A program made the translations under genes and the position numbers. From Gloeocapsa sp. PCC 7428 (GTDB lineage: Bacteria; Cyanobacteriota; Cyanobacteriia; Cyanobacteriales; Chroococcidiopsidaceae), in contig NC_019745.1 of assembly GCF_000317555.1 (NCBI RefSeq), positions 2,976,001 through 3,040,000 on the forward strand: a DNA stretch of 64,000 nt. Direction: 5' to 3'. Below the pieces are notes generated by a model that made no database searches, was not told the origin of the DNA, and saw only the letters and a program-made list of their open reading frames with translations. Below, one piece after another: positions 726 through 14,620 of the stretch. The first letter of the stretch is position 1; every line of letters starts with the position of its first letter.

Positions 726-737
726 ATCATATATGAT
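726..737. promoter_or_regulatory. Perfect 12-bp palindrome, candidate GntR operator
   Basis: ATCATATATGAT is a perfect palindrome in the 199-bp gap between the divergent lipoprotein gene and the GntR gene, about 70 bp before the GntR start. FadR/FCD regulators bind short palindromes of this size near their own promoters, and a TATAAA stretch follows at 739-744. Assignment to this regulator is inference from position and symmetry only. Confidence 0.35.
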
Positions 738-807: not shown

Positions 808-1482
808 TTGACCGCAAAGCTACAATTTCCAACCATCACAGGACTTTCACGCACGACGCAAGCGAGTGTTACAGATTATTTACGAAAAGCAATTCTTTCG
901 GGAGAGTTACCTGCGGGTACTCGTCTTGTGCAAGCAGAATTATCGCAAGTACTTAATGTGAGTGTTACTCCGATCCGCGAAGCACTCCGCGAACTGAGTA
1001 CGCAAGGTTTAGTTGACTTAGATGCCTTTCGCGGTGCTGTAGTGCACGCGCCAACGCTGGCAGAATTAGAAGAAATCTTTGAGATTCGTAGGGCGTTACT
1101 GCCATTAAGTATTCAAAGAGGAGTATATGCTATTACCGAGCAAGAACTTCAGCAAGCAGAATTGCTATTAGCGCAAATGGAAGTTGAAAGCGATCGCCCC
1201 CGCTGGGTAGAACTAAATCGCCAATTTCACGATTTGCTGTATCAAGCAGACCGCAGTTTGCATTTAAAAACTTTACTACAACGCCTATCAGATATTGCAG
1301 CGATTTATATCAATTTATCTTTTGCCGAAAGACCATTACAAAAAGAATCAGCCGAGAAAGAACACCGCGAACTTTTAGAAGCATATCGTAGTAAAGATGC
1401 GGCGCGGGCGATAAATATATCTCTCAATCACATCAATTCAACGTTAGAAGCCGCACGAAAAGTTTTACAAAGTCATCAATAA
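808..1482 (+). CDS. GntR-family transcriptional regulator, FCD (FadR-like) subfamily
   Basis: The 224-residue protein has an N-terminal winged helix-turn-helix (about 12-78, with LSQVLNVSVTPIREALREL as the recognition region) and a C-terminal helical FCD effector domain (about 85-215). His-containing segments FHDLLY, EHRELL and NHINSTL sit at the metal/ligand positions usual for FCD domains. The start is TTG at 808, preceded by AAAGGAG at 795-801. It is the first gene of a same-strand set with two ring-opening amidohydrolases and diverges from a substrate-binding lipoprotein. The likely role is a local repressor released by the substrate or a product of that pathway. Family assignment is firm; effector and regulon are inferred. 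Confidence 0.88.
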   Translation: MTAKLQFPTITGLSRTTQASVTDYLRKAILSGELPAGTRLVQAELSQVLNVSVTPIREALRELSTQGLVDLDAFRGAVVHAPTLAELEEIFEIRRALLPLSIQRGVYAITEQELQQAELLLAQMEVESDRPRWVELNRQFHDLLYQADRSLHLKTLLQRLSDIAAIYINLSFAERPLQKESAEKEHRELLEAYRSKDAARAINISLNHINSTLEAARKVLQSHQ

Positions 1483-1489
1483 ATACATT

Positions 1490-2626
1490 ATGAACACTTC
1501 GACTTCGCAACAGTGGATTGATGTTGGCGTCTTTCGCTTACCAATGTCTGCACCAGAAGATGTGAGTAGCTTACAACATCTTTTAGAAACACAGCAAATT
1601 CAAGCCGCAGATATTGTAGCGATTATTGCCCAAACCGAAGGTACAGGATACGCACGCGGTTATGCATCTTTGTGTCTGCAACTATTGCTGTCGCAGTATC
1701 TGCAAATTTCTGTGGAAGATGTTTTCCATCGCATTCCGATGATGATGATTGGGTTATGTGGTGGCTTGATGAGTCCGCACTATACGATATTTACACGCAA
1801 AGCAGTTGCTGCACCTTCCACACCTCCTCAAGAAAAACGATTAGCTGTAGGAATAGCAGATACTCGCGTGTTGCTACCTGAAGAATACGGTACCATGACG
1901 CAAGTCGAGTTAGTAGCCGAAGCCGTAGAAGCCGCGATCGCCCAAGCCGGAATAAGTTCATTAGACGACGTTCATTGCGTTGAAATCAAGTGTCCTGCGA
2001 TGACTTTAGCGCGGCTGCAAGATGCTGAAAAGCGTAGGGTGAAGGTTGTGAATACTAATCTCAATCAAGCAAGTTCGATGGCAAAGGGTGCGTGTGCGTT
2101 GGGTATCGGTTTGGCTTTAAAAGAAATACCTCAAGAAAAACTAGACGATCGCGCGATTAACTCAAATCACGCACTCTACACAAATCGCGGTTCGGTTTCT
2201 GCTGGCGGAGAACAATCGGCGTGTCGCGTTTTAGTGATGGGTAACTCAGCGTTTTCCGCGAGTCGCTATCGCATCGGAAGTGGAGTCATGCAGAATCAGT
2301 TGGATACAACTGGGGTATATGCAGCATTGAAATCCGCAGGGTTAAATTGTCAGATTCCGCTAACAACAGATCAACAAAACAAGATTACGCAAGTCTTTGT
2401 AAACTGTGGTGCAGATGCAGTCACTGCGGTGGGCGATCGCCGTCATACAATGCACAGTGATTTTCTAGCAGGCTATGCCGGAATTATGGCAAAAGCGGTA
2501 GCAAATGCGATTGTTGCTTCGGTAGTTGGCGATACGATGATTCTGGCGTCGGCGGGGAACGAACATCAAGGTGCGCGAGGTAGTAATTTGGTGGCGGCGA
2601 TCGTTGATGCAGGAACAACGCAGTAA
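1490..2626 (+). CDS. Ring-opening amidohydrolase (AtzD/barbiturase family), paralogue with degenerate active-site residues
   Basis: The 378-residue protein has the three-fold repeated architecture of cyanuric acid hydrolases and barbiturases, enzymes that open heterocyclic amide rings using Ser/Lys dyads, one per repeat. Compared by eye with the second paralogue at 3132-4160, repeat A has Gln48 where Lys is expected (AQTEGTG) and Cys90 where Ser is expected, with a short deletion after it. Repeat B keeps IKCP (Lys167) and SVSAGGE (Ser237). Repeat C has Asn305 for Lys (FVNCGAD) but keeps Ser354 (ASAGNEHQG). So only the central dyad is intact. It starts 8 bp after the GntR stop and clearly shares its operon. 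It may act on a different substrate, be a subunit of a mixed complex, or be losing function. The reading frame is fully open, which argues against simple decay. Confidence 0.85.
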   Translation: MNTSTSQQWIDVGVFRLPMSAPEDVSSLQHLLETQQIQAADIVAIIAQTEGTGYARGYASLCLQLLLSQYLQISVEDVFHRIPMMMIGLCGGLMSPHYTIFTRKAVAAPSTPPQEKRLAVGIADTRVLLPEEYGTMTQVELVAEAVEAAIAQAGISSLDDVHCVEIKCPAMTLARLQDAEKRRVKVVNTNLNQASSMAKGACALGIGLALKEIPQEKLDDRAINSNHALYTNRGSVSAGGEQSACRVLVMGNSAFSASRYRIGSGVMQNQLDTTGVYAALKSAGLNCQIPLTTDQQNKITQVFVNCGADAVTAVGDRRHTMHSDFLAGYAGIMAKAVANAIVASVVGDTMILASAGNEHQGARGSNLVAAIVDAGTTQ

Positions 2627-2638
2627 TTTAATTATGGT

Positions 2639-2680
2639 GCGGCGATCGTTGATGCAGGGGCAAGGCACTGCCTTACCCCT
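2639..2680. repeat. Copy of the upstream gene's 3' end followed by a hairpin repeat
   Basis: GCGGCGATCGTTGATGCAGG at 2639-2658 is an exact copy of 2594-2613, the end of the preceding amidohydrolase coding sequence. It runs straight into an inverted repeat (GGGGCAAGGCA with TGCCTTACCCC). A near-identical hairpin lies at 22086-22106, so the hairpin belongs to a dispersed family. The block fills most of the 86-bp gap before the next gene. Confidence 0.7.
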
Positions 2681-2712
2681 TAAATTAATACAGTTGACAA
2701 GGAAGCAAAAAT

Positions 2713-3129
2713 ATGTATTTGCGTCAAACGCGCGAGTTGACTCATCAAGGGGCGATGGTGGTATTGCAAGGGGCGATCGCCAAAGCTGAAGAAATGGGCG
2801 TACCGCAGTGTATTGCCATTGTGGATACTGGGGGAAATTTATTAGCGTTTGTGCGGATGGATGGCGCGAAGATTTTGAGTCAAATTTCGGCAACGCAAAA
2901 AGCTGTGACGGCGGTTTCTTCGCGAGTACCGACAGGGGGAGTTGCACAAGATGTCGAAATCAAACTGGCATTGGCAACAGCGGGACAGTTAACGAATCTA
3001 AAAGGTGGAGTTCCCATTACAATTGATGACCAAGTTGTTGGGGCGATCGGTGTGGGTTCGGGCACTGGACAACAAGATGTCGAAGTCGCTTTAGCTGGTA
3101 TCGCTGCGTTACAGGCGCTCATGCAATAG
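2713..3129 (+). CDS. GlcG/HbpS-family (heme-degrading-domain type, DUF336) protein
   Basis: The 138-residue protein matches the compact GlcG/HbpS fold along its whole length: [20 protein letters not shown], then [13 protein letters not shown], a GGVPI segment and the closing [17 protein letters not shown] helix. The family includes heme-binding HbpS and many uncharacterised proteins found beside catabolic enzymes; its biochemical role is mostly unknown. There is no signal peptide, so it is probably cytoplasmic. It lies between two paralogous ring-opening amidohydrolases, and its stop is 2 bp before the start of the second, suggesting translational coupling. I infer an accessory role in the same pathway, not a demonstrated one. 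Confidence 0.85.
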
Positions 3130-3131
3130 TT

Positions 3132-4160
3132 ATGAAAGTAGAAGTTTACAAAATTCCGCAAAATAGTCCTGATGACTTATCGCAACTCGATGCTTTGATT
3201 CATAGCGGTAAGATCGATCCTCATAAAATTGTGGCAATTCTCGGTAAAACCGAGGGTAACGGTTGTGTTAATGACTTTACACGCGGGTTCGCGATCCAAA
3301 CGTTGAAAACATATCTACGCGAGAAAGCGAATCTTGAAGTTGCACAACGAATTATTTATGTCATGTCGGGTGGTACGGAAGGAGTTTTGAGTCCGCACCT
3401 GAATATTTTTACACGAGACGAGCAAGAAGGAGTGCAACGCTGGGGATTAGCGATTGGAATTAGCCGGACGCGGGACTTTTTACCAACCGAGATTGGTACG
3501 CTGGCAATGGTCGAGGAAGTGGCAGCAGGAGTAGAAGCGGCGATCGCCGATGCGAAGTTAGATAAATCAGATGTTCATTTTGTGCAAATTAAATGCCCGT
3601 TGATCGTTTCTACGCAACAGGTAAAAGCAAGTAACAGCTATCAATCGATGGCGTATTCGCGCGGGACGTCTGCATTAGGTGTGGCTGTGGCGATGGGGGA
3701 GATTAATCTTGAGCAAATAACAGCAACGGATATTTGTGCAAACTATGCGTTGTATTCTCAAGTCGCTTCAACTTCAGCAGGGGTGGAGTTGCATAACTGT
3801 GAAATTATCGTATTGGGTAACTCTCACCAATCAACAAGTAACTTTGTCATAGGACATAGTGTGATGCAACACGCGTTGGATCGCGAGGCAATTTGTCAAG
3901 CAGTGCGCAGTACAAACCAACCGCTAGAACGTGTTGTCAATATCTTTGCCAAAGCCGAGGCTGATCCTTCGGGATTTATTTTAGGACGCCGACACACGAT
4001 GCTAGATGATTCGGATATCAATCATACACGCATGGCAAGAGCCGTTGTTGCGGCTGTTGCGGCTTCTGTCGTGCAAGACCCTATGGTGTATGTTTCCGGT
4101 GGTAGCGAACATCAAGGTCCGCCAGGCGGTGGTCCTGTCGCAGCGATCGCCTACTTGTGA
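3132..4160 (+). CDS. Ring-opening amidohydrolase, cyanuric acid hydrolase/barbiturase type (canonical paralogue)
   Basis: The 342-residue protein has the complete three-repeat signature of the AtzD/barbiturase family. Repeat A has Lys39 (GKTEGNG) and Ser79 (VMSGGTEG), repeat B Lys154 (IKCP) and Ser215 (STSAGVE), repeat C Lys274 (FAKAEAD) and Ser322 ([16 protein letters not shown]). These are the three Lys/Ser pairs that form the symmetric active site. The enzyme should hydrolyse a cyclic imide-like ring such as cyanuric acid, barbiturate or a related pyrimidine/purine breakdown product; the exact substrate cannot be decided by reading. It begins 2 bp after the GlcG-like stop and is the last gene of the GntR operon. 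No urea/biuret amidohydrolase follows, so downstream processing must be encoded elsewhere. Confidence 0.9.
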
Positions 4161-5877: not shown

Positions 5878-6471
5878 ATGAAGATTGTTCAAGAGATTTC
5901 TCTGATAAGCGTTGGAGGTTTTGAAGAATCAGGCGATTGGTCTATTGTTCGGGCTGAAATTCGTGAGGCTATTTCCCTCATTGTTCATCCTCCTGGTGCA
6001 TCAAACTTTACCATTAACCCAACGAAACATGGTAATGGCGTCAAGCCGATTAAAGAAGCTGGCATGATTGCTTTGAAGGATAGGTTTGGATGGAGGCTAG
6101 AAACTTCAATTAACTACGCAACTCGATCTCCAGGAAAGGTAGACGCAACCAAAGTTCTTGACAGCTATCTTTTTGCTCTTGAGTGGGAAACGGGAAATAT
6201 ATCCTCAAGCCATCGAGCCATCAACAAGATGGTTCTTGGATTGTTACGAGGTGTTTTTCTAGGTGCTGTTTTAGTACTTCCAAGTAGAAAACTTTATCCT
6301 TATCTAACTGATCGGATTGGCAACTATGAAGAACTAGAGCCATATTTTGATGTTTGGCGGGCAGTTCGGCTCCAAGAGGGGTTTCTCGCAATTTTTGTGA
6401 TTGAACACGATCAAGTAGATAGCAATGTACCAACGATTACTAAAGGAACTGATGGTCGTGCATTGGTCTAA
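5878..6471 (+). CDS. Putative type II restriction endonuclease, BamHI/BglII-like
   Basis: The 197-residue protein contains LEWETGNISSSHRAINKM (about 101-118), with an acidic E102-x-E104 followed by G-N and a polar helix, and an upstream KVDA with Asp89. This order (Asp, then ExE/ExQ, then GN and a helix) resembles the catalytic core of BamHI/BglII-type enzymes, where the PD-(D/E)XK lysine is replaced. It converges on a DNA methyltransferase gene with only 18 bp between stops, the classic layout of a restriction-modification pair. The N-terminal about 80 residues show no motif I recognise. Assignment rests on motif plus neighbour; the recognition site is unknown. No strong ribosome site precedes the ATG. 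Confidence 0.65.
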   Translation: MKIVQEISLISVGGFEESGDWSIVRAEIREAISLIVHPPGASNFTINPTKHGNGVKPIKEAGMIALKDRFGWRLETSINYATRSPGKVDATKVLDSYLFALEWETGNISSSHRAINKMVLGLLRGVFLGAVLVLPSRKLYPYLTDRIGNYEELEPYFDVWRAVRLQEGFLAIFVIEHDQVDSNVPTITKGTDGRALV

Positions 6472-6489
6472 ATTTTAAACAAAAGTAAG

Positions 6490-7476
6490 CTAGGTAGTGT
6501 AAGGAATGGGTAGTTGTAATGCATTTGTTTCGCGGCGCTTCAACTTCTTGTTTCCCCTTGCCGATTCCCATTGCTCAACAAGTCCGTTAGCTAAATTGGT
6601 CAATCGTTGTATTGCTGGCTGTGTATCACCAATTTCTGAACCAATCCAGTAACGGTGCAGTTTTTCTGCTGCATAAAATGTAGTGCCAGATCCCCCAAAT
6701 GGATCAACCACAACTTGACCTGGGTTAGATGCCATAGCGACAATCCGTTCTAGCATAATTGGAGCAAGTTCGTTGGGAACTCGCTTTTTATGCTGGCGAT
6801 GCCGAACAGGTGGAATATCAGTCCACATTTCCTCCGCCAATGTCCATAAGGTTTCATTTGGATTAGTTTCAGAAGCATTTTCCCAAACATCCTCTGGCAT
6901 ATCCCAGACATCCATCAAATTGATGCCGTTTTCATTAAGTCTTTTGCGATGTCCGCCGTAATCACGAATTTCTCTACCGCAGTGACGACAGACTTGAATG
7001 GGTGTATAAACTTTATTAAAGACTGCTGGCTCCCCTTTTGTGTAATAGACTAGCCCATAGTGGGCAGGAGACATCTTTTTGCCTCTAGGAAAAGTTTTCG
7101 GCATCCTGCAAGCAATCCAATGTCGAAACCACATCTCTTTCCGATTGAGGTATGCACCGTACTCTATGCACCATTGGGGTAAGTTGAATACAAACAAACT
7201 TCCACCTTCTTTAAGGACTCGAACACTCTGCTCAAGCCACTGCTGCGACCAACTTAAATACTTGTCAACCTCCATCTGATCGTTGACACTTTCACCGTAT
7301 TCTTTTCCCAGGTTAAAGGGTGGATCAGCAAATATAAGATCTACAGACTTACTAGGTAACGCTGTCAGAAGTTTAAGACAATCTCCTTGATAAAGGATGC
7401 CATGCTCACTCCTGTAAACCTGTTGCAATTCTTTTTGAGTTGCAATATTAGCTGCAATCACTTCAAACGGGAGCAT
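6490..7476 (-). CDS. Site-specific DNA methyltransferase, beta class (N6-adenine or N4-cytosine)
   Basis: The 328-residue protein has motif IV (FADPPFNLGKEYG, about 49-61) before motif I (VVVDPFGGSGTTFYAAEKL, about 256-274), the permuted order of beta-class amino-methyltransferases. The DPPF form leaves adenine-N6 and cytosine-N4 both possible. The target-recognition region between them is rich in Trp and His and holds a CRHCG motif (Cys163, Cys166) followed by DYGGHRKRL, a possible metal-binding knuckle. It is downstream of, and probably co-transcribed with, an excisionase-like HTH gene, and converges with a BamHI/BglII-like nuclease. It should protect the host genome from that nuclease. Confidence 0.9.
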   Translation of the reverse strand: MLPFEVIAANIATQKELQQVYRSEHGILYQGDCLKLLTALPSKSVDLIFADPPFNLGKEYGESVNDQMEVDKYLSWSQQWLEQSVRVLKEGGSLFVFNLPQWCIEYGAYLNRKEMWFRHWIACRMPKTFPRGKKMSPAHYGLVYYTKGEPAVFNKVYTPIQVCRHCGREIRDYGGHRKRLNENGINLMDVWDMPEDVWENASETNPNETLWTLAEEMWTDIPPVRHRQHKKRVPNELAPIMLERIVAMASNPGQVVVDPFGGSGTTFYAAEKLHRYWIGSEIGDTQPAIQRLTNLANGLVEQWESARGNKKLKRRETNALQLPIPYTT

Positions 7477-7520
7477 TGACTTAGCCTTTAGTACGTTAGT
7501 ATTAGTTGAGTTTATAAACT

Positions 7521-7769
7521 CTATTTACTTTTGTCAACAGAGTTTGGGTAAGAAGTTGTACTCCGTGGTTGATAAGGTTTTCCAGTAGGTTGATTCAAAT
7601 ATCGCTTTAATTCAGCGGCTTCTATATAGTAATAACGTCCGAGTTTGCAAGCGACAATCTGACCGTTCTTGATAAGGTCGTGAACTCGCTGGCGAGTGAC
7701 ATTAAGTAGCTTTGCAGTTTGAGCAACAGAGAGTAATTCAGGATTACTGTTTGAACCGGAGTTTGTCAT
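7521..7769 (-). CDS. Excisionase-family helix-turn-helix DNA-binding protein
   Basis: The 82-residue protein carries a single MerR/Xis-type winged helix (about 13-60): LLSVAQTAKLLNVTRQRVHD followed by IKNGQIVACKLGRYYYI and AAELKRYL. This is the HTH_17 pattern used by excisionases and small regulators. It lies 44 bp upstream of the methyltransferase on the same strand. No integrase or attachment site is nearby, so excision is unlikely. I infer a regulator of the restriction-modification genes, filling the place of the C-protein of other systems, although its fold differs from the lambda-Cro-like C-proteins. Confidence 0.8.
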   Translation of the reverse strand: MTNSGSNSNPELLSVAQTAKLLNVTRQRVHDLIKNGQIVACKLGRYYYIEAAELKRYLNQPTGKPYQPRSTTSYPNSVDKSK

Positions 7770-7931: not shown

Positions 7932-8909
7932 TCAAAGCACACTGATTGACAACGCGATCGCTCTTGGTAAAATTGCCTTTGATAACATTCCGTGAACGCC
8001 TTTTTGGGGCAAATTGACCACTTGCGTAATGCGAAAATTCACAGCTAAGCTACACAATACATAAGCTTCTTCGGCACTCAAACCCACAAAGCGTTCGAGA
8101 AGATCAATCATATGCTGTAGTGCAGATTCAAATGCTGCATCTAAAGTTTGCCCAAAGCCCATTGTAATAATGTCGGTGGGCGTTTCAGCGATGGGAGTTG
8201 TGAGCTTGAGATCTTTACGCAATGTTATCTTAATTCTGCCATTCATTGATGTTTCAATCGCCGTCAAATCAACTTCACCATCGCCTTGCGCCGAGTGTCC
8301 ATCACCAATGGAAAATAACGCGCCAGGAACAAAAACGGGTAGAAATATTCGCGAACCTGCTTGTAGTTCTTTGTTGTCAATATTTCCGCCATAATTGCCA
8401 GGCGGAACCGAGGAACGATTTTCTGCGGTCGCAACACCAAGAATACCAAAAAAAGGCTTAAGTGGAATTTCTATACCACTTCCTAACGGAAACTCTGCAA
8501 TTTGTCTTTCTAAATCTAATGGAATAAATTGTATCTTTTGTTCTGAAAAATATTTAGGCAATGCTCCTTTATTTGGGTAAATTGCATTAAAACCAACAGG
8601 TAATCGTGGAGAGATTGCCTCTAAATTGACTTCTAAGACATCTCCAGGTTGAGCATCAGTGATATAAATTGGTCCTGTGAGTAAATGAGGTCCCAAATTA
8701 ACTTTACGCTCTTGAGAAAGATGTTGACAAATCTCTTGAAATTCAGGAGTTAGAAATTCTGGTGGTGCTTTGTCATAAACATAGAAGCCAGTGTATGTTT
8801 CGACATCAATACTGTCACCTGAGTGAATCGTTAAAACAGGTTTCAATTGAGGAGAAAAACCGCCTAAGTGTACCGTGTGATGATTCGCTTTAAGAATATG
8901 ATGCGCCAT
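7932..8909 (-). CDS. Acetamidase/formamidase family protein
   Basis: The 325-residue protein belongs to the FmdA/AmdA family, which hydrolyses short-chain amides to ammonia and the acid. Visible family features are HTVHLGGFSPQLKPVLTIHSGD near the N-terminus, LTGPIYITDAQPGDVLEVNL, the VPPGNYGGNIDNKEL segment and the FSIGDGHSAQGDGEVD signature that contributes active-site His/Asp. The C-terminal MGFGQTLDAAFESAL is also typical. It is soluble, has no signal peptide, and stands as a single gene. Its presence near ring-opening amidohydrolases fits amide-nitrogen scavenging, but there is no shared operon. Confidence 0.9.
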   Translation of the reverse strand: MAHHILKANHHTVHLGGFSPQLKPVLTIHSGDSIDVETYTGFYVYDKAPPEFLTPEFQEICQHLSQERKVNLGPHLLTGPIYITDAQPGDVLEVNLEAISPRLPVGFNAIYPNKGALPKYFSEQKIQFIPLDLERQIAEFPLGSGIEIPLKPFFGILGVATAENRSSVPPGNYGGNIDNKELQAGSRIFLPVFVPGALFSIGDGHSAQGDGEVDLTAIETSMNGRIKITLRKDLKLTTPIAETPTDIITMGFGQTLDAAFESALQHMIDLLERFVGLSAEEAYVLCSLAVNFRITQVVNLPQKGVHGMLSKAILPRAIALSISVL

Positions 8910-9179
8910 GCGATCGCAATATAGTCAAAAATTTTATTCTGTCGAGTTTATTTCAGTAAGCTACTACATTTATGTAATAAATTTAACAGAAAATATATTA
9001 AAAATTATGCTGGCAATGAACAAGTGAGTTTTATCAAAAATCCATAAACTGTATATCTTGAATAATGTCAGCAGTCGTTAACAAAACTATAAATTAATGT
9101 TATTTAAATTACATATAGCTTTAAGAAACTCAGATAAGATTTGGGCTACTTAAGTCTTTTTATACAGGTGTGAGAAATA

Positions 9180-10922
9180 ATGACGAACGTTGCAACTATC
9201 TGGAAAGGTAGTTTAATTGCTGCGACAACTTTTTGGTGCTTAATATTTGAGACGACATTTTTATCACCATCAAAAGTATGGGGATTGCCGACAACCGAAG
9301 TCACGAATTTAGTCGCTACAAACAACGATGCAATGGCACAAGTAACATCGGTATCGCAGTTATCCGATGTGCAACCTACCGATTGGGCGTTTCAAGCATT
9401 ACAATCGTTAGTCGAACGCTATGGTTGCATTGCTGGTTATCCTGATAGTACATATCGCGGTAATCGCGCTTTAACCCGTTATGAATTTGCTGCGGGTTTG
9501 AATGCGTGTTTAGATCGTGTTAATGAATTAATTGCAGCAGCAACCGCGAATCAAGTTACTCGCGAAGATATCGAAACGCTACAAAGACTAGAAACAGAAT
9601 TCGCAGCAGAACTTGCAACTTTACGCGGACGAGTAGATACTTTAGAAGCCCAAGTCGCCGAACTTGCAGCGAATCAATTTTCGACAACAACGAAACTGAC
9701 AGGTAATGTCTTTATCAATCTTACTGGAGCATTTGCGGATGGAACCATTTTAGCTGAAGGGGAAACCGCATTTAGAACGCAGCCGAGAACGGCAACACCT
9801 TTATTACGCGAAATTGATGAAGATCCCAACATTACGCTGAGTAACTTGGTTTGGTTGAATTTTAATACATCTTTTACAGGTAGAGATTCTTTAGTTGTAC
9901 AGCTAGGAGCAGGTAATGGCAACTCTCCCGCGAATCAATTTGTCTCAGCAGGCTTGTATAATACTTGGGGTGTTCCTTTTACCGACCAAACAACCGCACC
10001 AGGAGGAACCGCAGGCGCAAACGATGTTGTTGTTCGCGAACTATTTTACAGCTTTCCTGTAACGGATAATTTGCAAGCCGTCGTTGGTTCGCGGATTAAC
10101 TGGTATCGCTATTTTGATACCAACCGCTTTACGTTCTTTTTAACAGGTGCAGGAAGTTTTAACTCAAGTGGAAGTACGCTGTTAAACACAATTGATCGCG
10201 GTTCGGGTTTAGCGCTTCTGTGGCAAATTAACGACCAATTTAGACTTAATGTTGCTTATCTAGGTGAAAATTCAGAATTTCTCCCCAGTGGAGTGTTTAA
10301 TTCCTCAAGCAATCCTAGCCAAGGTTTATTTGACCCTACGAATACAATTACCGCTGAGCTAACATTTTCGCCGAGCGATCGCTTTAACTTAAGATTACTC
10401 TATAACCGCTCGAATACTAGAGCAATTGGCGGACAAATCGGCGGTGCGATCGGCGAACCGATTTATGGCTTTGCTGATGATGGTTTCGATGGTCCTGTTG
10501 ATAATGCGACAGCAGATGTCGTTAGTGTCAACTTCGATTGGCTGATTGCGGATGGTTTTGGGATCTTTGGGCGCTATGGCTACGGTAGTACCAATTTATT
10601 TCCCTTAACTCCAGGTTTACCGAATGGAGAAGTCAACGCGCAATCGCTACAACTTGGAGTTGCTTTTCCTGACTTAATTAAAGAAGGCGCGCTGTTAACA
10701 GTATCCTATCTTCTTCCCTTCTCTATTCTGGATGGACGTAATTTCCTCGCCTCTGGTGGTGGCGATGGTGGAGTACAGTACGAGTTTGAAGCAACGTACT
10801 TCTACCCGCTAACAAACAACATCGCGCTTGTTCCCGCATTTTACGTCATCGGCAATCCCAACAATTTCAGCGATAACCCGACAGTTTATGTTGGTAACGT
10901 ACGCGCCCAGTTTAGCTTTTAA
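9180..10922 (+). CDS. Iron-uptake-type porin with SLH domain (cyanobacterial OprB-like)
   Basis: The 580-residue outer-membrane protein has an N-terminal hydrophobic signal region, an SLH domain (about 60-110, DVQPTDWAFQALQSLVERYG and GNRALTRYEFAAGLNACL), and a short coiled coil (about 125-170, LRGRVDTLEAQVAELAANQF). A C-terminal beta-barrel (about 175-580) follows, with alternating aromatic strands and a terminal Phe (VRAQFSF). The SLH domain binds peptidoglycan-linked polysaccharide; the barrel passes ions, iron in characterised relatives. The gene stands alone; the 270 bp upstream are AT-rich and hold only its promoter region as far as I can see. Confidence 0.92.
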   Translation: MTNVATIWKGSLIAATTFWCLIFETTFLSPSKVWGLPTTEVTNLVATNNDAMAQVTSVSQLSDVQPTDWAFQALQSLVERYGCIAGYPDSTYRGNRALTRYEFAAGLNACLDRVNELIAAATANQVTREDIETLQRLETEFAAELATLRGRVDTLEAQVAELAANQFSTTTKLTGNVFINLTGAFADGTILAEGETAFRTQPRTATPLLREIDEDPNITLSNLVWLNFNTSFTGRDSLVVQLGAGNGNSPANQFVSAGLYNTWGVPFTDQTTAPGGTAGANDVVVRELFYSFPVTDNLQAVVGSRINWYRYFDTNRFTFFLTGAGSFNSSGSTLLNTIDRGSGLALLWQINDQFRLNVAYLGENSEFLPSGVFNSSSNPSQGLFDPTNTITAELTFSPSDRFNLRLLYNRSNTRAIGGQIGGAIGEPIYGFADDGFDGPVDNATADVVSVNFDWLIADGFGIFGRYGYGSTNLFPLTPGLPNGEVNAQSLQLGVAFPDLIKEGALLTVSYLLPFSILDGRNFLASGGGDGGVQYEFEATYFYPLTNNIALVPAFYVIGNPNNFSDNPTVYVGNVRAQFSF

Positions 10923-10971
10923 TAGCAGAGGTCGGAGGTTAGAGTTTAAACAGCGGCTGAATATTTAATTG

Positions 10972-12975
10972 CTAACTGCTCATCGCTGTAGAATTTATGT
11001 GTCGAATGACTTCTGCGACTGACCAAGCTTGCGCGATCGCACCTCGCGGAGTATGCGGCGCGTCACCGTCAAAAATTTCTGAAATTGAGCCGATACAAGC
11101 TTGCGCGTGAAAGTGTTCGAGTAAAGGTTGCCAATCGAAGGGAACTGGTTGTGAGGTGTAACGTTGCCAAGCGCGGATAAAGGAACCAATTAGCCAACTC
11201 CATACCGTACCTTGATGATAAGCGCGATCGCGCTGTTGCACATCTCCGGTGCATTTACCAACGTACTGTACGTCTTCTGGTGCTAAACTCCGCAATCCAT
11301 AAGGCGTCAGCAGTTTTGCCCTAGCAACTTCTAAAATTTGCCGTCCTTGGAGTGCGGGAAATGCAGAATGATGAAATGACAGTGCTAAAACCGCATTCGG
11401 GCGAATTTGCGGATTGCGGCGATCGTCCGGTTCAATCGTGTCGTATAGATAACTATTTGTCGGATTCCAAAACTTCTGCATTGAGTCTTTGACTTGTTCG
11501 GCTTGTTGTTGATAGCGTCGTGCTTGATTCAGCAAACGAGTTTGTTCAAATCCATCCTCTTGGCTTAAACGTTGTGCCCAAGTACTCGCCCAACATAAAG
11601 CAGAGTACCATAAAGCATTAATTTCGACAGGTTTACCGCGACGTGGTGTGACAGGTTGTCCGCGAACGATCGCATCCATCCAAGTGAGTGCAACACTAGG
11701 TGCATCCCAACTCACAAGTCCATCCGCAGCATCAACTTGGATATTAAACTTTGTCCCCGCCATAAAGGCTTTATAAATTTGCTGTACAACGGCGTACTCC
11801 TCGACTAAAAAATCCCAATCTTGCGTCGCTTCGAGATACAACCCTAAAGTTTCAATCCATAGTAAAGCCGCATCAATGCTGTTGTAAGACGGTTCAGCGC
11901 TAGTATCAGGAAATGTATTCGGAATTAAACCATGACGACAATAACGACCGAAAGTTTGTAACAGTCCTTTTGCTAAATCAAAGCGCCGCGTTGTCAGTGC
12001 TAATCCTGGTAACGCGATTAATGTATCGCGTCCCCAATCATTAAACCAGTGATAACCTGCAATGACTGTGGGTCCAGCAATCGAAGCGCGGTACACGACA
12101 AATTGGTCACTCGCACGGAGTAATTGCTGTTGCAGGTAGCTAGAAGTTGAAGACTCAAAATTGAACGTTTGGGCAAGTCGTTGCTGTTCTAGTTGTATAG
12201 CATCAGCAAAATCGGTGTCTTGCAGTGTCGGTAAAGTCCTATTAGGAAACCCTACGCGTGCTTCTAAAGTAATACAACTTCCTGGATCTAAGTGAATTGT
12301 GAGATAACCAGGACTATACAAGTCTTCGCGATCGCTTAACCCTCGATTTGTTTCTTCCGGCAAACGATAATTCCAGTACCACACAGGATCGTGTTGATAT
12401 TTACCCGCTGTCCAACGTAGCCGCCAAGGTGTTCCTACCCATCCTGGGCGTAGCGCCTGCAAAAATACCTGCTGTTGCCCCAAAAGTTGCGAAAATTGTA
12501 AATTTGGATCAGCTTGCTGTTGATGATGAAAATCGCGATCGGCAATCATGAACCGCAAGCGTAAAATCCCTGGAACTTTTCCTTTGTAGCAATATTGAAT
12601 CAAAACGCGATTTGTGTCGCTTTCTGAGGGTGTAGCACCCACATGGGGCATAATAATTTGTCTTGTTAGCTGCCAATGATCTTCTTGCCACATCCAGGTG
12701 GGAAGCGGTTCAGGTTTAAAGTGATGCAGCAACTGAAAGCCTTTTGGTTCAATAACGTTATTACCCCAATAATTTGTTCCCAAGGCAATAACTTTGCCAG
12801 CCACTTCTAAACTTGCTTCGATGTGCGACAGTAGTAACGTGCGCTGACTCGGTGGGTCTAATGCTGCAACTAACCAACCATGATACGTCCGCGTGCGAGC
12901 GTCAGTAACTGTACCACTCGCAAAACTTCCTAAGCCATTTGTCAGCAGCCACTCGCGATCGTCTAAATTCTTCAT
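10972..12975 (-). CDS. Amylo-alpha-1,6-glucosidase (glycogen debranching enzyme, GH133-type)
   Basis: The 667-residue protein has the GDE N-terminal domain (REWLLTNGLGSFASGT, about 8-23, and TYHGWLVAAL) and a C-terminal (alpha/alpha)6 catalytic domain with HWFNDWGRDTLIALPGLAL and, near the end, WSWLIGSFIRAW. It removes alpha-1,6 branches of glycogen in the cytoplasm. Nearby genes for GlgC and a GH13 amylase-type enzyme make this a glycogen-turnover neighbourhood, although each gene has its own promoter. Length and motifs agree with full-length bacterial relatives. Confidence 0.9.
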   Translation of the reverse strand: MKNLDDREWLLTNGLGSFASGTVTDARTRTYHGWLVAALDPPSQRTLLLSHIEASLEVAGKVIALGTNYWGNNVIEPKGFQLLHHFKPEPLPTWMWQEDHWQLTRQIIMPHVGATPSESDTNRVLIQYCYKGKVPGILRLRFMIADRDFHHQQQADPNLQFSQLLGQQQVFLQALRPGWVGTPWRLRWTAGKYQHDPVWYWNYRLPEETNRGLSDREDLYSPGYLTIHLDPGSCITLEARVGFPNRTLPTLQDTDFADAIQLEQQRLAQTFNFESSTSSYLQQQLLRASDQFVVYRASIAGPTVIAGYHWFNDWGRDTLIALPGLALTTRRFDLAKGLLQTFGRYCRHGLIPNTFPDTSAEPSYNSIDAALLWIETLGLYLEATQDWDFLVEEYAVVQQIYKAFMAGTKFNIQVDAADGLVSWDAPSVALTWMDAIVRGQPVTPRRGKPVEINALWYSALCWASTWAQRLSQEDGFEQTRLLNQARRYQQQAEQVKDSMQKFWNPTNSYLYDTIEPDDRRNPQIRPNAVLALSFHHSAFPALQGRQILEVARAKLLTPYGLRSLAPEDVQYVGKCTGDVQQRDRAYHQGTVWSWLIGSFIRAWQRYTSQPVPFDWQPLLEHFHAQACIGSISEIFDGDAPHTPRGAIAQAWSVAEVIRHINSTAMSS

Positions 12976-13109
12976 TTGCTACTCAAAATCGTTATGAGTA
13001 TGATATAGTTGTAACAGTTCGACATAATCAAGATTCGCGTGCATGAGTTAGTTTTATCAAACTCGCTCATAGTCACCTGAAAGTAGACGCATCAAGGAGA
13101 AATAGTTTA

Positions 13110-13721
13110 ATGCCTCTAAGTTACGCAGCAGATGGATGCCTCAGAGTTGGTCAAACTGCTCCCGATTTTACCGCTACCGCTGTATACGATCAGGAATTTA
13201 AGACAATCAAACTCTCTGACTATCGGGGCAAGTACGTAATCCTATTTTTCTATCCTCTAGACTTTACCTTTGTTTGCCCAACTGAGATTACCGCATTTAG
13301 CGATCGCTTTGACGACTTTAAGGCAATCAACACGGAAATTTTAGGCGTTTCTGTTGATAGTGAATTTTCGCACTTAGCCTGGATTCAAACAGATCGTAAA
13401 TCTGGTGGCGTAGGCGACCTAAATTATCCGCTTGTTTCGGACATCAAGAAAGAAATTAGTGCTGCTTACAACGTTCTCGATCCAGAAGCAGGGGTTGCGC
13501 TGCGTGGTCTGTTCATCATCGATAAAGACGGTATTATCCAGCACTCAACCATCAATAACCTGTCCTTTGGTCGCAACGTAGACGAGACGCTACGCACACT
13601 CAAAGCAATTCAGTACGTACAAGATCACCCCGATGAGGTATGTCCTGCTGGTTGGCAGCCTGGTGATAAGACAATGACACCCGATCCTGTCAAGTCCAAA
13701 GTTTACTTTGCTTCAGTGTAA
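13110..13721 (+). CDS. Typical 2-Cys peroxiredoxin
   Basis: The 203-residue protein has the peroxidatic cysteine in [10 protein letters not shown] (Cys56) and the resolving cysteine in DEVCPAGW (Cys178). A GGVGDL loop and a C-terminal YF motif (KVYFASV) are also present; together these two features mark the hyperoxidation-sensitive class. It reduces hydrogen peroxide and organic peroxides using thioredoxin in the cytoplasm. AAGGAG lies before the ATG. A hairpin terminator follows. A second peroxiredoxin-like gene lies downstream but is separated by that terminator. Confidence 0.95.
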
Positions 13722-13755
13722 ACATCAAAAATGCACTAACACCATAGAAGCTTCT

Positions 13756-13798
13756 AACCCAACACAGCTTGAGAAGAGTAACAATGTGTTGGGTTTTT
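13756..13798 (+). terminator. Rho-independent terminator of the 2-Cys peroxiredoxin gene
   Basis: An 11-bp perfect stem, AACCCAACACA at 13756-13766 pairing with TGTGTTGGGTT at 13785-13795, is followed by a T-run. It lies 35 bp after the stop codon. Confidence 0.85.
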
Positions 13799-13898
13799 CA
13801 TCAAAGTAAAAGTGTTAACATTAAACAGTTTTCTCGAAAAAAATAGCTAAATTTAGCATAGTATTTCTCATTTTCTTGAAGCTGATAAAGAAAAAATT

Positions 13899-14438
13899 AT
13901 GCTAACTTCCACAGATTTTAGTGGTTTATTAAACGAACGCTTTTTTCGGAATTTGTTACCGATTCCCGCTGAAGATGCTATTAGTTTAGGCAAAACCACG
14001 CCAAACTTTACGCTACCCGATATTACTAACGGTCGGCTAGTCAAGTTATCAGATTATCAAGGGAAACAGCCAGTTTTATTAGCTTTTACGCGGATTTTTA
14101 CCGAAAAGCAATATTGTCCTTTCTGCTATCCTCATATCATCGATTTGAACGAGAACTACGATCGCTTTACAAGTCGTGGTATCGAAGTTCTGATGATTAC
14201 CAGTACTGATGAACGTCAAAGTCAAATCGTTATTAAAGATTTGGGATTAAAACTTCCCTTACTCAGCGATCCTAGTTGTAGTACATTCCGCAACTATAAA
14301 GTAGGACAAGCATTAGGCGCACCTTTACCCGCACAGTTTGTCTTAGACGCACAAGGTAAACTGCAATACAGACATCTGTTTTCCTTTTTCTCACATAATG
14401 CCAGTATTGAAACGTTATTAGCGCAGTTTGAGAAATAA
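13899..14438 (+). CDS. Peroxiredoxin-like redoxin (AhpC/TSA fold)
   Basis: The 179-residue protein has a thioredoxin-like redoxin fold: GKTTPNFTLPDI, KLSDYQGKQPVLLAF, then KQYCPFCYPH with Cys73 and Cys76. The CxxC arrangement at the position of the peroxidatic cysteine is unlike the 2-Cys peroxiredoxin just upstream and more like PRX-like2 or thiol-disulfide redoxins. No signal peptide, so cytoplasmic. The probable role is peroxide or disulfide reduction; the exact donor and substrate are unclear. It is transcribed after its own promoter, as a terminator separates it from the previous gene. Confidence 0.82.
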   Translation: MLTSTDFSGLLNERFFRNLLPIPAEDAISLGKTTPNFTLPDITNGRLVKLSDYQGKQPVLLAFTRIFTEKQYCPFCYPHIIDLNENYDRFTSRGIEVLMITSTDERQSQIVIKDLGLKLPLLSDPSCSTFRNYKVGQALGAPLPAQFVLDAQGKLQYRHLFSFFSHNASIETLLAQFEK

Positions 14439-14453
14439 AATAAAAGACGCCTG

Positions 14454-14620
14454 GCGAATAAATTCGCGGCTTAAAAACCCACCTTCGTGGACTACTAACA
14501 AGATACGATTTGTAGAAACCTGTGGAGACAGGTTTTGTTTGAATAGCCGCGGTTTTAACCGCATCACCTGTTGACGAGATACGGTTTTAAAAAGCTGCGG
14601 TTTTAACCGCATCAGCTGTT
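14454..14620. repeat. Cluster of dispersed palindromic repeats
   Basis: GCGAATAAATTCGC at 14454-14467 is followed by a partial hairpin CCACCTTCGTGG; the same pair of elements occurs near 26060 and, diverged, near 58814. Then two similar 27-bp units at 14546-14572 and 14594-14620, each centred on GCGGTTTTAACCGC, close the block. The second unit touches the stop codon of the dnaJ-type gene at 14619. It fills the gap between two convergent genes and may double as a transcription terminator. Confidence 0.75.

Follow-up and report, generated by a model that had tools for sequence, protein, structure and literature searches.

We analysed a stretch of 64,000 nucleotides from Gloeocapsa sp. PCC 7428 (the window; G000:C1:2976001-3040000) in which two proteins of the AtzD/barbiturase family of ring-opening amidohydrolases, here named A and B, are encoded in one operon. 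On the basis of the sequence pattern of A, its clade, purifying selection, predicted fold, gene neighbourhood and a shared palindrome, we consider it probable that the locus belongs to a regulon for scavenging cyclic ureides with two ring openers of different specificity, of which A would act on an asymmetric ring. The operon runs GntR, A, HbpS-like, B, with intergenic gaps of 7, 86 and 2 base pairs (bp), and A and B are the only PF09663 matches in the whole genome. An earlier reading made from the letters alone (the sequence-only reading) had described tandem ring-opening amidohydrolases; two intact reading frames of the family are indeed present, but they are not strictly tandem, as the HbpS-like gene lies in between. 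The features of the operon are as follows (positions are those of the window).

808..1482, + strand: GntR-family regulator with FCD domain, TTG start (PF00392, 51.4 bits; PF07729, 66.5 bits; both above cut-off)
1490..2626, + strand: A, AtzD/barbiturase-family protein of the asymmetric subfamily, 378 amino acids (PF09663); residues Q48, R56, I87 / K167, K199, S237, E241 / N305, K335, S354, A355
2713..3129, + strand: HbpS-like protein (PF03928, 111.2 bits; cut-off 25)
3132..4160, + strand: B, predicted cyanuric acid hydrolase, 342 amino acids (NF052395 CyanAcHdlAtzD, 472.9 bits; cut-off 360)
726..737, no strand: palindrome ATCATATATGAT in the divergent promoter, candidate GntR operator

Active-site residues of A and B

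Both proteins pass the curated cut-offs of PF09663 and TIGR02714 (A, 455.9 and 307.2 bits; B, 504.9 and 411.8 bits), and A is predicted to have the Toblerone fold of the family. Residues were assigned from HMMER alignments to solved enzymes and from MAFFT alignments, which were in agreement. These alignments bore out the three Ser-Lys dyads that the sequence-only reading had listed for B (K39/S79, K154/S215 and K274/S322), and all five B-type proteins tested lay above the NF052395 cut-off of 360 bits. Judged by its residues and by this NCBIfam cut-off, B is predicted to be an ordinary cyanuric acid hydrolase.

The corresponding positions in A are Q48/I87, K167/S237 and N305/S354, that is, Gln replaces Lys1, Ile replaces Ser1 and Asn replaces Lys3. 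The sequence-only reading had correctly placed Gln48 and Asn305 at Lys1 and Lys3 and had seen that K167/S237 and Ser354 are retained; its third substitution, Cys90, did not hold, since the Ser1 column is occupied by Ile87 and Cys90 sits three residues further on. Cys90 was also considered as a replacement for Ser1 and rejected: its column holds Thr in 34 cyanuric-acid-hydrolase-like proteins, and among the 23 A-clade proteins Cys, Thr and Val occur 13, 7 and 3 times, so that 10 of the 23 have Thr or Val. The Gln48 column is fixed by the TEG that follows, and no lysine lies close to N305 in A; therefore, the residues at these positions were lost rather than shifted. Among the substrate-binding arginines, the first is kept in A (R56) and the other two are Lys (K199 and K335). 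The AtzD Thr321 column is ambiguous by one residue in A and was left out of the analysis. The Glu beside dyad 2 is also kept (E241), and the domain-2 Ser-Lys dyad, its Glu and the domain-1 Arg (K167, S237, E241 and R56) were found in 23 out of 23 A proteins. A departs from the cyanuric acid hydrolases at Q48/I87 and N305 and scores 319.8 bits against the NF052395 cut-off of 360, below which all five A proteins tested were found.

Published work on the family bears directly on these residues. In PMC4051656, Ser226/Lys156 was the sole dyad conserved family-wide, with Glu230 beside it, and Arg52 was the sole fully conserved arginine; in PMC6557486, the attack was placed at Ser231-Lys161 near Arg52. 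All four residues tied to catalysis (domain-2 Ser, Lys and Glu, and domain-1 Arg) are kept in A, and A is probably active because it keeps the residues that these two papers assign to attack. PMC3758960 argued for the first serine as nucleophile, a serine that A does not have, and described all dyad residues as conserved in its 68 proteins, which is at odds with PMC4051656 and with the A clade.

Two long-branch family members, L106 (G1375) and L107 (G1328), were found to have Phe at the domain-2 nucleophile serine and to keep the other two dyads. Their pattern is the reverse of that in A and departs from the published view that the middle dyad is always kept; the serine may have shifted by one residue.

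History and distribution of A

The A clade contains 23 proteins from three phyla (13 from Cyanobacteria, 7 from Paenibacillales and 3 from Pseudomonadota), and its residue pattern is present in all 23 and in none of the 51 other family members. Phylogenetic analysis placed the A clade and cyanobacterial B in separate groups, each with 100/100 support. The tree has 72 rows and includes 22 of the 23 A proteins; the A of G1445 (L105) and a fragment in G170 (L009) are outside the tree and are included in the residue count. The ratio of non-synonymous to synonymous substitution rates (dN/dS) of A between two genera was ~0.10, and a check for stop or frameshift variants in close relatives found A intact, with an open reading frame, in all 13 cyanobacterial genomes that have it. 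The sequence-only reading had called A 'stripped'; as history this does not stand, given the separate groups of A and B and substitutions fixed in three phyla. From these sequence comparisons, A is a member of an old, widely shared subfamily and not a decaying copy of B.

It should be noted that the genome sets were even draws, pattern matches or the genomes behind those matches rather than censuses, and that several are metagenome-assembled genomes (MAGs), so that absences are soft. PF09663 matches were found in 6 of 386 genomes drawn from the phylum (5 above cut-off), in 8 of 388 drawn from the order and in none of fourteen named control genomes; for the order of G1445, two genomes were searched. 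In three cyanobacteria (G193, G394 and G409), B is intact and there is no A. When plasmids were searched with three A proteins, the matches were all family members below 60% identity (37-43% among the matches listed). Broken B-type genes were observed in G170 (L005/L009), where the gene is split in two frames, and in G008 (L006/L010), where it is down to a remnant. An unrelated family pair is present at the alphaproteobacterial locus L113 (G1463; 8336-9430 and 11475-12602, ~2 kilobases (kb) apart), in which both members have three intact dyads.

Gene partners of A and B

The commonest partner of A was an HbpS-like gene directly downstream, present in 15 of the 23 genomes: 12 of 13 cyanobacteria (the exception is L031), all three Pseudomonadota and none of the seven Paenibacillales. 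No HbpS match was found within the own 1.5-kb flanks of other family members (some of which end at contig ends), save for B of the five A-HbpS-B operons. The product of the gene at 2713-3129 belongs to the HbpS/GlcG/PduO-C family (PF03928).

B-type genes were identified in 13 of 13 cyanobacterial A genomes, in two of seven Paenibacillales and in none of three Pseudomonadota, although that of G673 amounts to a 54-residue fragment, identified as B-type, where a contig stops, and the B of G669 lies in two pieces on two contigs. A second family member was not seen in 8 of the 10 non-cyanobacterial A genomes (several of them MAGs or drafts). The A-HbpS-B adjacency occurs in 5 of the 13 cyanobacterial A genomes, all from one family. 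In G671 and G676, the distance between A and B is 6.4 and 5.7 kb, respectively, and B adjoins or is close to importer genes. The question whether the pair is conserved in other cyanobacteria is thus answered for co-occurrence (13 of 13) and, to a lesser extent, for adjacency (5 of 13), and the functional tie between A and B in cyanobacteria is real.

In Paenibacillales, an AtzC-like hydrolase was found near A at all seven loci and importer genes at six of them; at L038, the one such locus annotated further, an isochorismatase-like hydrolase and an amidase come after. AtzC-like genes also occur by A in the five related cyanobacteria and at L039. Based on the HbpS, AtzC-like and importer neighbourhoods, therefore, A has its own genomic setting, and B is a steady companion in cyanobacteria only.

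Genes for a solute-binding protein of the NMT1 type and an amidohydrolase lie just beyond the window, divergent from GntR (locus L026); among solved proteins, the former is closest to a pyrimidine-binding protein (3ix1) and the latter to AtzC (4cqb). They are accompanied by genes for a phosphoribosyltransferase nearest a pyrE model, below its cut-off (86.9 versus 150.25 bits), and an MFS transporter. In G441, a relative, the divergent gene set continues with an ABC ATPase and a permease. AtzC and AtzD act in successive steps of atrazine breakdown; therefore, the context of the locus fits ring catabolism.

Elsewhere, the genome encodes a biuret hydrolase (G000:C1:563474-564136; 421.1 bits versus a cut-off of 370), near which is a second related protein with 43% identity to the query. 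Cyanuric acid and triuret can form when uric acid is oxidised, which gives such rings a natural source (PMC7948467). At L032, from an Oculatellaceae MAG (9857-14517), two genes on the opposite strand after A-HbpS encode proteins that resemble biuret hydrolase but score below the cut-off of 370 bits (347.3 and 278.1). The same locus has a flavin adenine dinucleotide (FAD) monooxygenase with a weak match to the urate hydroxylase HpxO, and this gene set is a possible link to oxidised purines.

Two exact copies of a 20-bp direct repeat (2594-2613 and 2639-2658; 0 expected) cover the 3' end of A and the gap ahead of the HbpS-like gene.

Candidate operator and other features of the window

The palindrome ATCATATATGAT is present in the divergent promoter of all five related operons, with one mismatch in G419, whose genome has only the one-mismatch form. 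Seven other cyanobacterial loci extend beyond GntR on its upstream side; six of them have an exact copy ahead of this gene, and the copy in the seventh (L035) has one mismatch. In L030 and L118, the palindrome also lies in the divergent promoter shared by an importer ATPase and FmdA, and in L034 it lies ahead of a binding protein; in L118, the ATPase/FmdA pair adjoins B, on another contig than A. Nine cyanobacterial loci, several of which were picked after a motif match, contained 10 exact copies in 135,959 bases, compared with 0 in 5.4 million shuffled bases. In 16 whole genomes, 18 exact places were found, of which 15 adjoin a gene of the A/B system (one of these being a second GntR-like gene in G670). 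Two places lie away from system genes (G441:C16, and G673:C1 at a contig end) and the 18th is at G670:C83; the reversed control pattern had one place. No copy was found in the B-only genomes G193, G394 and G409, nor in G672, where A is at the contig start. On these data, ATCATATATGAT is a candidate operator to which the GntR regulator would bind.

One further gene of the window may be part of the A/B system:

7932..8909, - strand: FmdA/AmdA (acetamidase/formamidase family) protein (PF03069, 126.9 bits; cut-off 27)

Its product is below the FormamaseFmdA equivalog cut-off. In addition, the region 5878-7769 contains a BamHI-family restriction endonuclease (PF02923, 256.5 bits), with a DNA methyltransferase-like reading frame next to it (6490-7476, minus strand) and a small one (7521-7769) that resembles a DNA-binding protein. 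The endonuclease and the methyltransferase-like frame have counterparts in G441 with 94% and 90% identity, respectively.

Proposed function and alternative explanations

From the evidence above we infer catalysis by A, its substrate and the role of HbpS. B would open cyanuric acid, and the product would turn into biuret, for the genome-encoded biuret hydrolase. In A, Lys167 would activate Ser237 with the help of Glu241, Arg56 would hold the carbonyl under attack, and Gln48, Ile87, Lys199, Asn305, Lys335 and Ala355 would accommodate the remaining edges of an asymmetric ring. This ring would most likely be of pyrimidine type, imported by the divergently encoded importer, and HbpS may assist A. 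The sequence-only reading had offered three roles for A (a mixed complex, a regulatory subunit, or an enzyme for an asymmetric ring), of which the last is now favoured, Lys2-Ser2-Glu2 and Arg1 being kept and ring-holding residues being changed.

Several observations weigh against this proposal. Single changes in the outer dyads of Azorhizobium cyanuric acid hydrolase caused losses on cyanuric acid from ~10^4-fold (Lys) to 10^8-fold (Ser) (PMC4051656), and A, without three such residues, could therefore be inactive; these losses argue against cyanuric acid as the substrate of A and leave room for other rings. The HbpS link fails in seven out of seven Paenibacillales. At the eight cyanobacterial A loci that are not from the Gloeocapsopsis group, no AtzC-like gene was found, and this gene is therefore not a fixed part. 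Finally, an allophanate hydrolase above cut-off was found in 1 of 15 genomes searched and not in Gloeocapsa (G000), so that, as far as is known, the route to ammonia is not complete.

A bolder version, which we consider unlikely, is that A and HbpS together form a two-protein ring opener, the first heteromeric form of the family, with HbpS supplying or gating the role of the lost dyads and an asymmetric pyrimidine-type ring (orotate or an oxidised base) as substrate.

We also consider it unlikely that A has no catalytic activity and serves to bind or sense, for example, as a sensor of ligands together with HbpS or GntR. Lys1, Ser1 and Lys3, each highly important in one mutationally tested enzyme, are lost, and HbpS takes part in a redox-sensing pathway in Streptomyces (PMC3754957); yet the invariance of K167, S237, E241 and R56 in all 23 A proteins is hard to explain without catalysis, and the Paenibacillales A lies among hydrolases and without HbpS.

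We give a similarly low probability to A still being a cyanuric or barbituric acid hydrolase that tolerates the changes. A shares the family and fold and has 41% identity to the Moorella cyanuric acid hydrolase in structural alignment, but the five A proteins tested are all below the cyanuric acid hydrolase cut-off, the barbiturase signature of PMC3758960 is not found in A, and a regular B is also present in all 13 cyanobacterial A genomes.

A mixed complex of A and B, or A as a regulatory subunit of B, appears very unlikely. It would agree with the shared operon in five genomes, the B-type gene in 13 of 13 cyanobacterial A genomes and the tetrameric state of solved family members (PMC4051656). 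However, no other family member was seen in 8 of the 10 A genomes from outside the cyanobacteria, B occurs without A in G193, G394 and G409, adjacency is confined to one family, and a full dyad with Glu and Arg exceeds what a structural subunit needs; as a general role, therefore, this earlier suggestion is unsupported. Recent decay of A as a duplicate of B, which the loss of dyad residues next to an intact paralogue might suggest, is refuted by the separate clade (100/100 support), a dN/dS of ~0.1, intact copies in 13 of 13 cyanobacterial genomes and identical substitutions in three phyla, and has almost no chance of being correct.

Comparison with known systems

Compared with the cyanuric acid hydrolases (AtzD, TrzD and those of Moorella and Azorhizobium), A lacks Lys1, Ser1, Lys3 and two of the three arginines and falls below the NCBIfam cut-off. 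Like barbiturase (Rhodococcus; 5hwe), in which the active site is described as adapted to an asymmetric ring by becoming asymmetric itself (PMC3758960), A has Lys at the third arginine position; unlike A, barbiturase retains the dyad lysines and serines in the alignments. At the barbiturase signature positions (Asn195, Lys325, Val345 and Ser/Ala346 in AtzD numbering), A has Lys199, Lys335, Ala355 and Gly356, the Lys at 325 being the sole agreement. The Bacillus subgroup of PMC4051656 shares with A a Lys at the Arg188 position. Group V of PMC3758960 (195 absent; Lys/Arg at 325; Gly/Ala at 345; Gly at 346) agrees with A at three of four positions, but position 195, reported absent there, is present in A as Lys199, and the named Group V and Bacillus sequences are outside the tree. 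The sole Group V member tested had no cyanurate or barbiturate activity (PMC3758960). In structural alignments, A is 32-34% identical to the Frankia chains; the Frankia structure 5hy0 has the PDB title 'orotic acid hydrolase'. A later paper on two family structures reportedly found no substrate for the Frankia protein, in contrast with this title, and our literature search found no paper on an orotic acid hydrolase.

Subgroups that have lost the outer dyads, the Lys at Arg188 in the Bacillus subgroup, and a Group V of which the only member tested was inactive on both cyanuric and barbituric acid have already been published (PMC4051656, PMC3758960). In the open-licence papers searched, no description was found of the cyanobacterial operon, the A-HbpS pairing, the palindrome or the fixed residue pattern. 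The locus points to a cyanobacterial nitrogen-scavenging regulon with a candidate operator and an HbpS-like partner. The catalytic dyad of the family is disputed, with the first serine (PMC3758960) set against the second (PMC4051656, PMC6557486), and the A clade, in which the middle dyad, Glu and Arg are kept and the outer dyads mostly lost, is a direct test of this dispute: activity of A would rule out the first serine as the general nucleophile of the family. Compared with the three-fold site that its relatives use for a symmetric ring, A would show how such a site can turn into one for an asymmetric ring.
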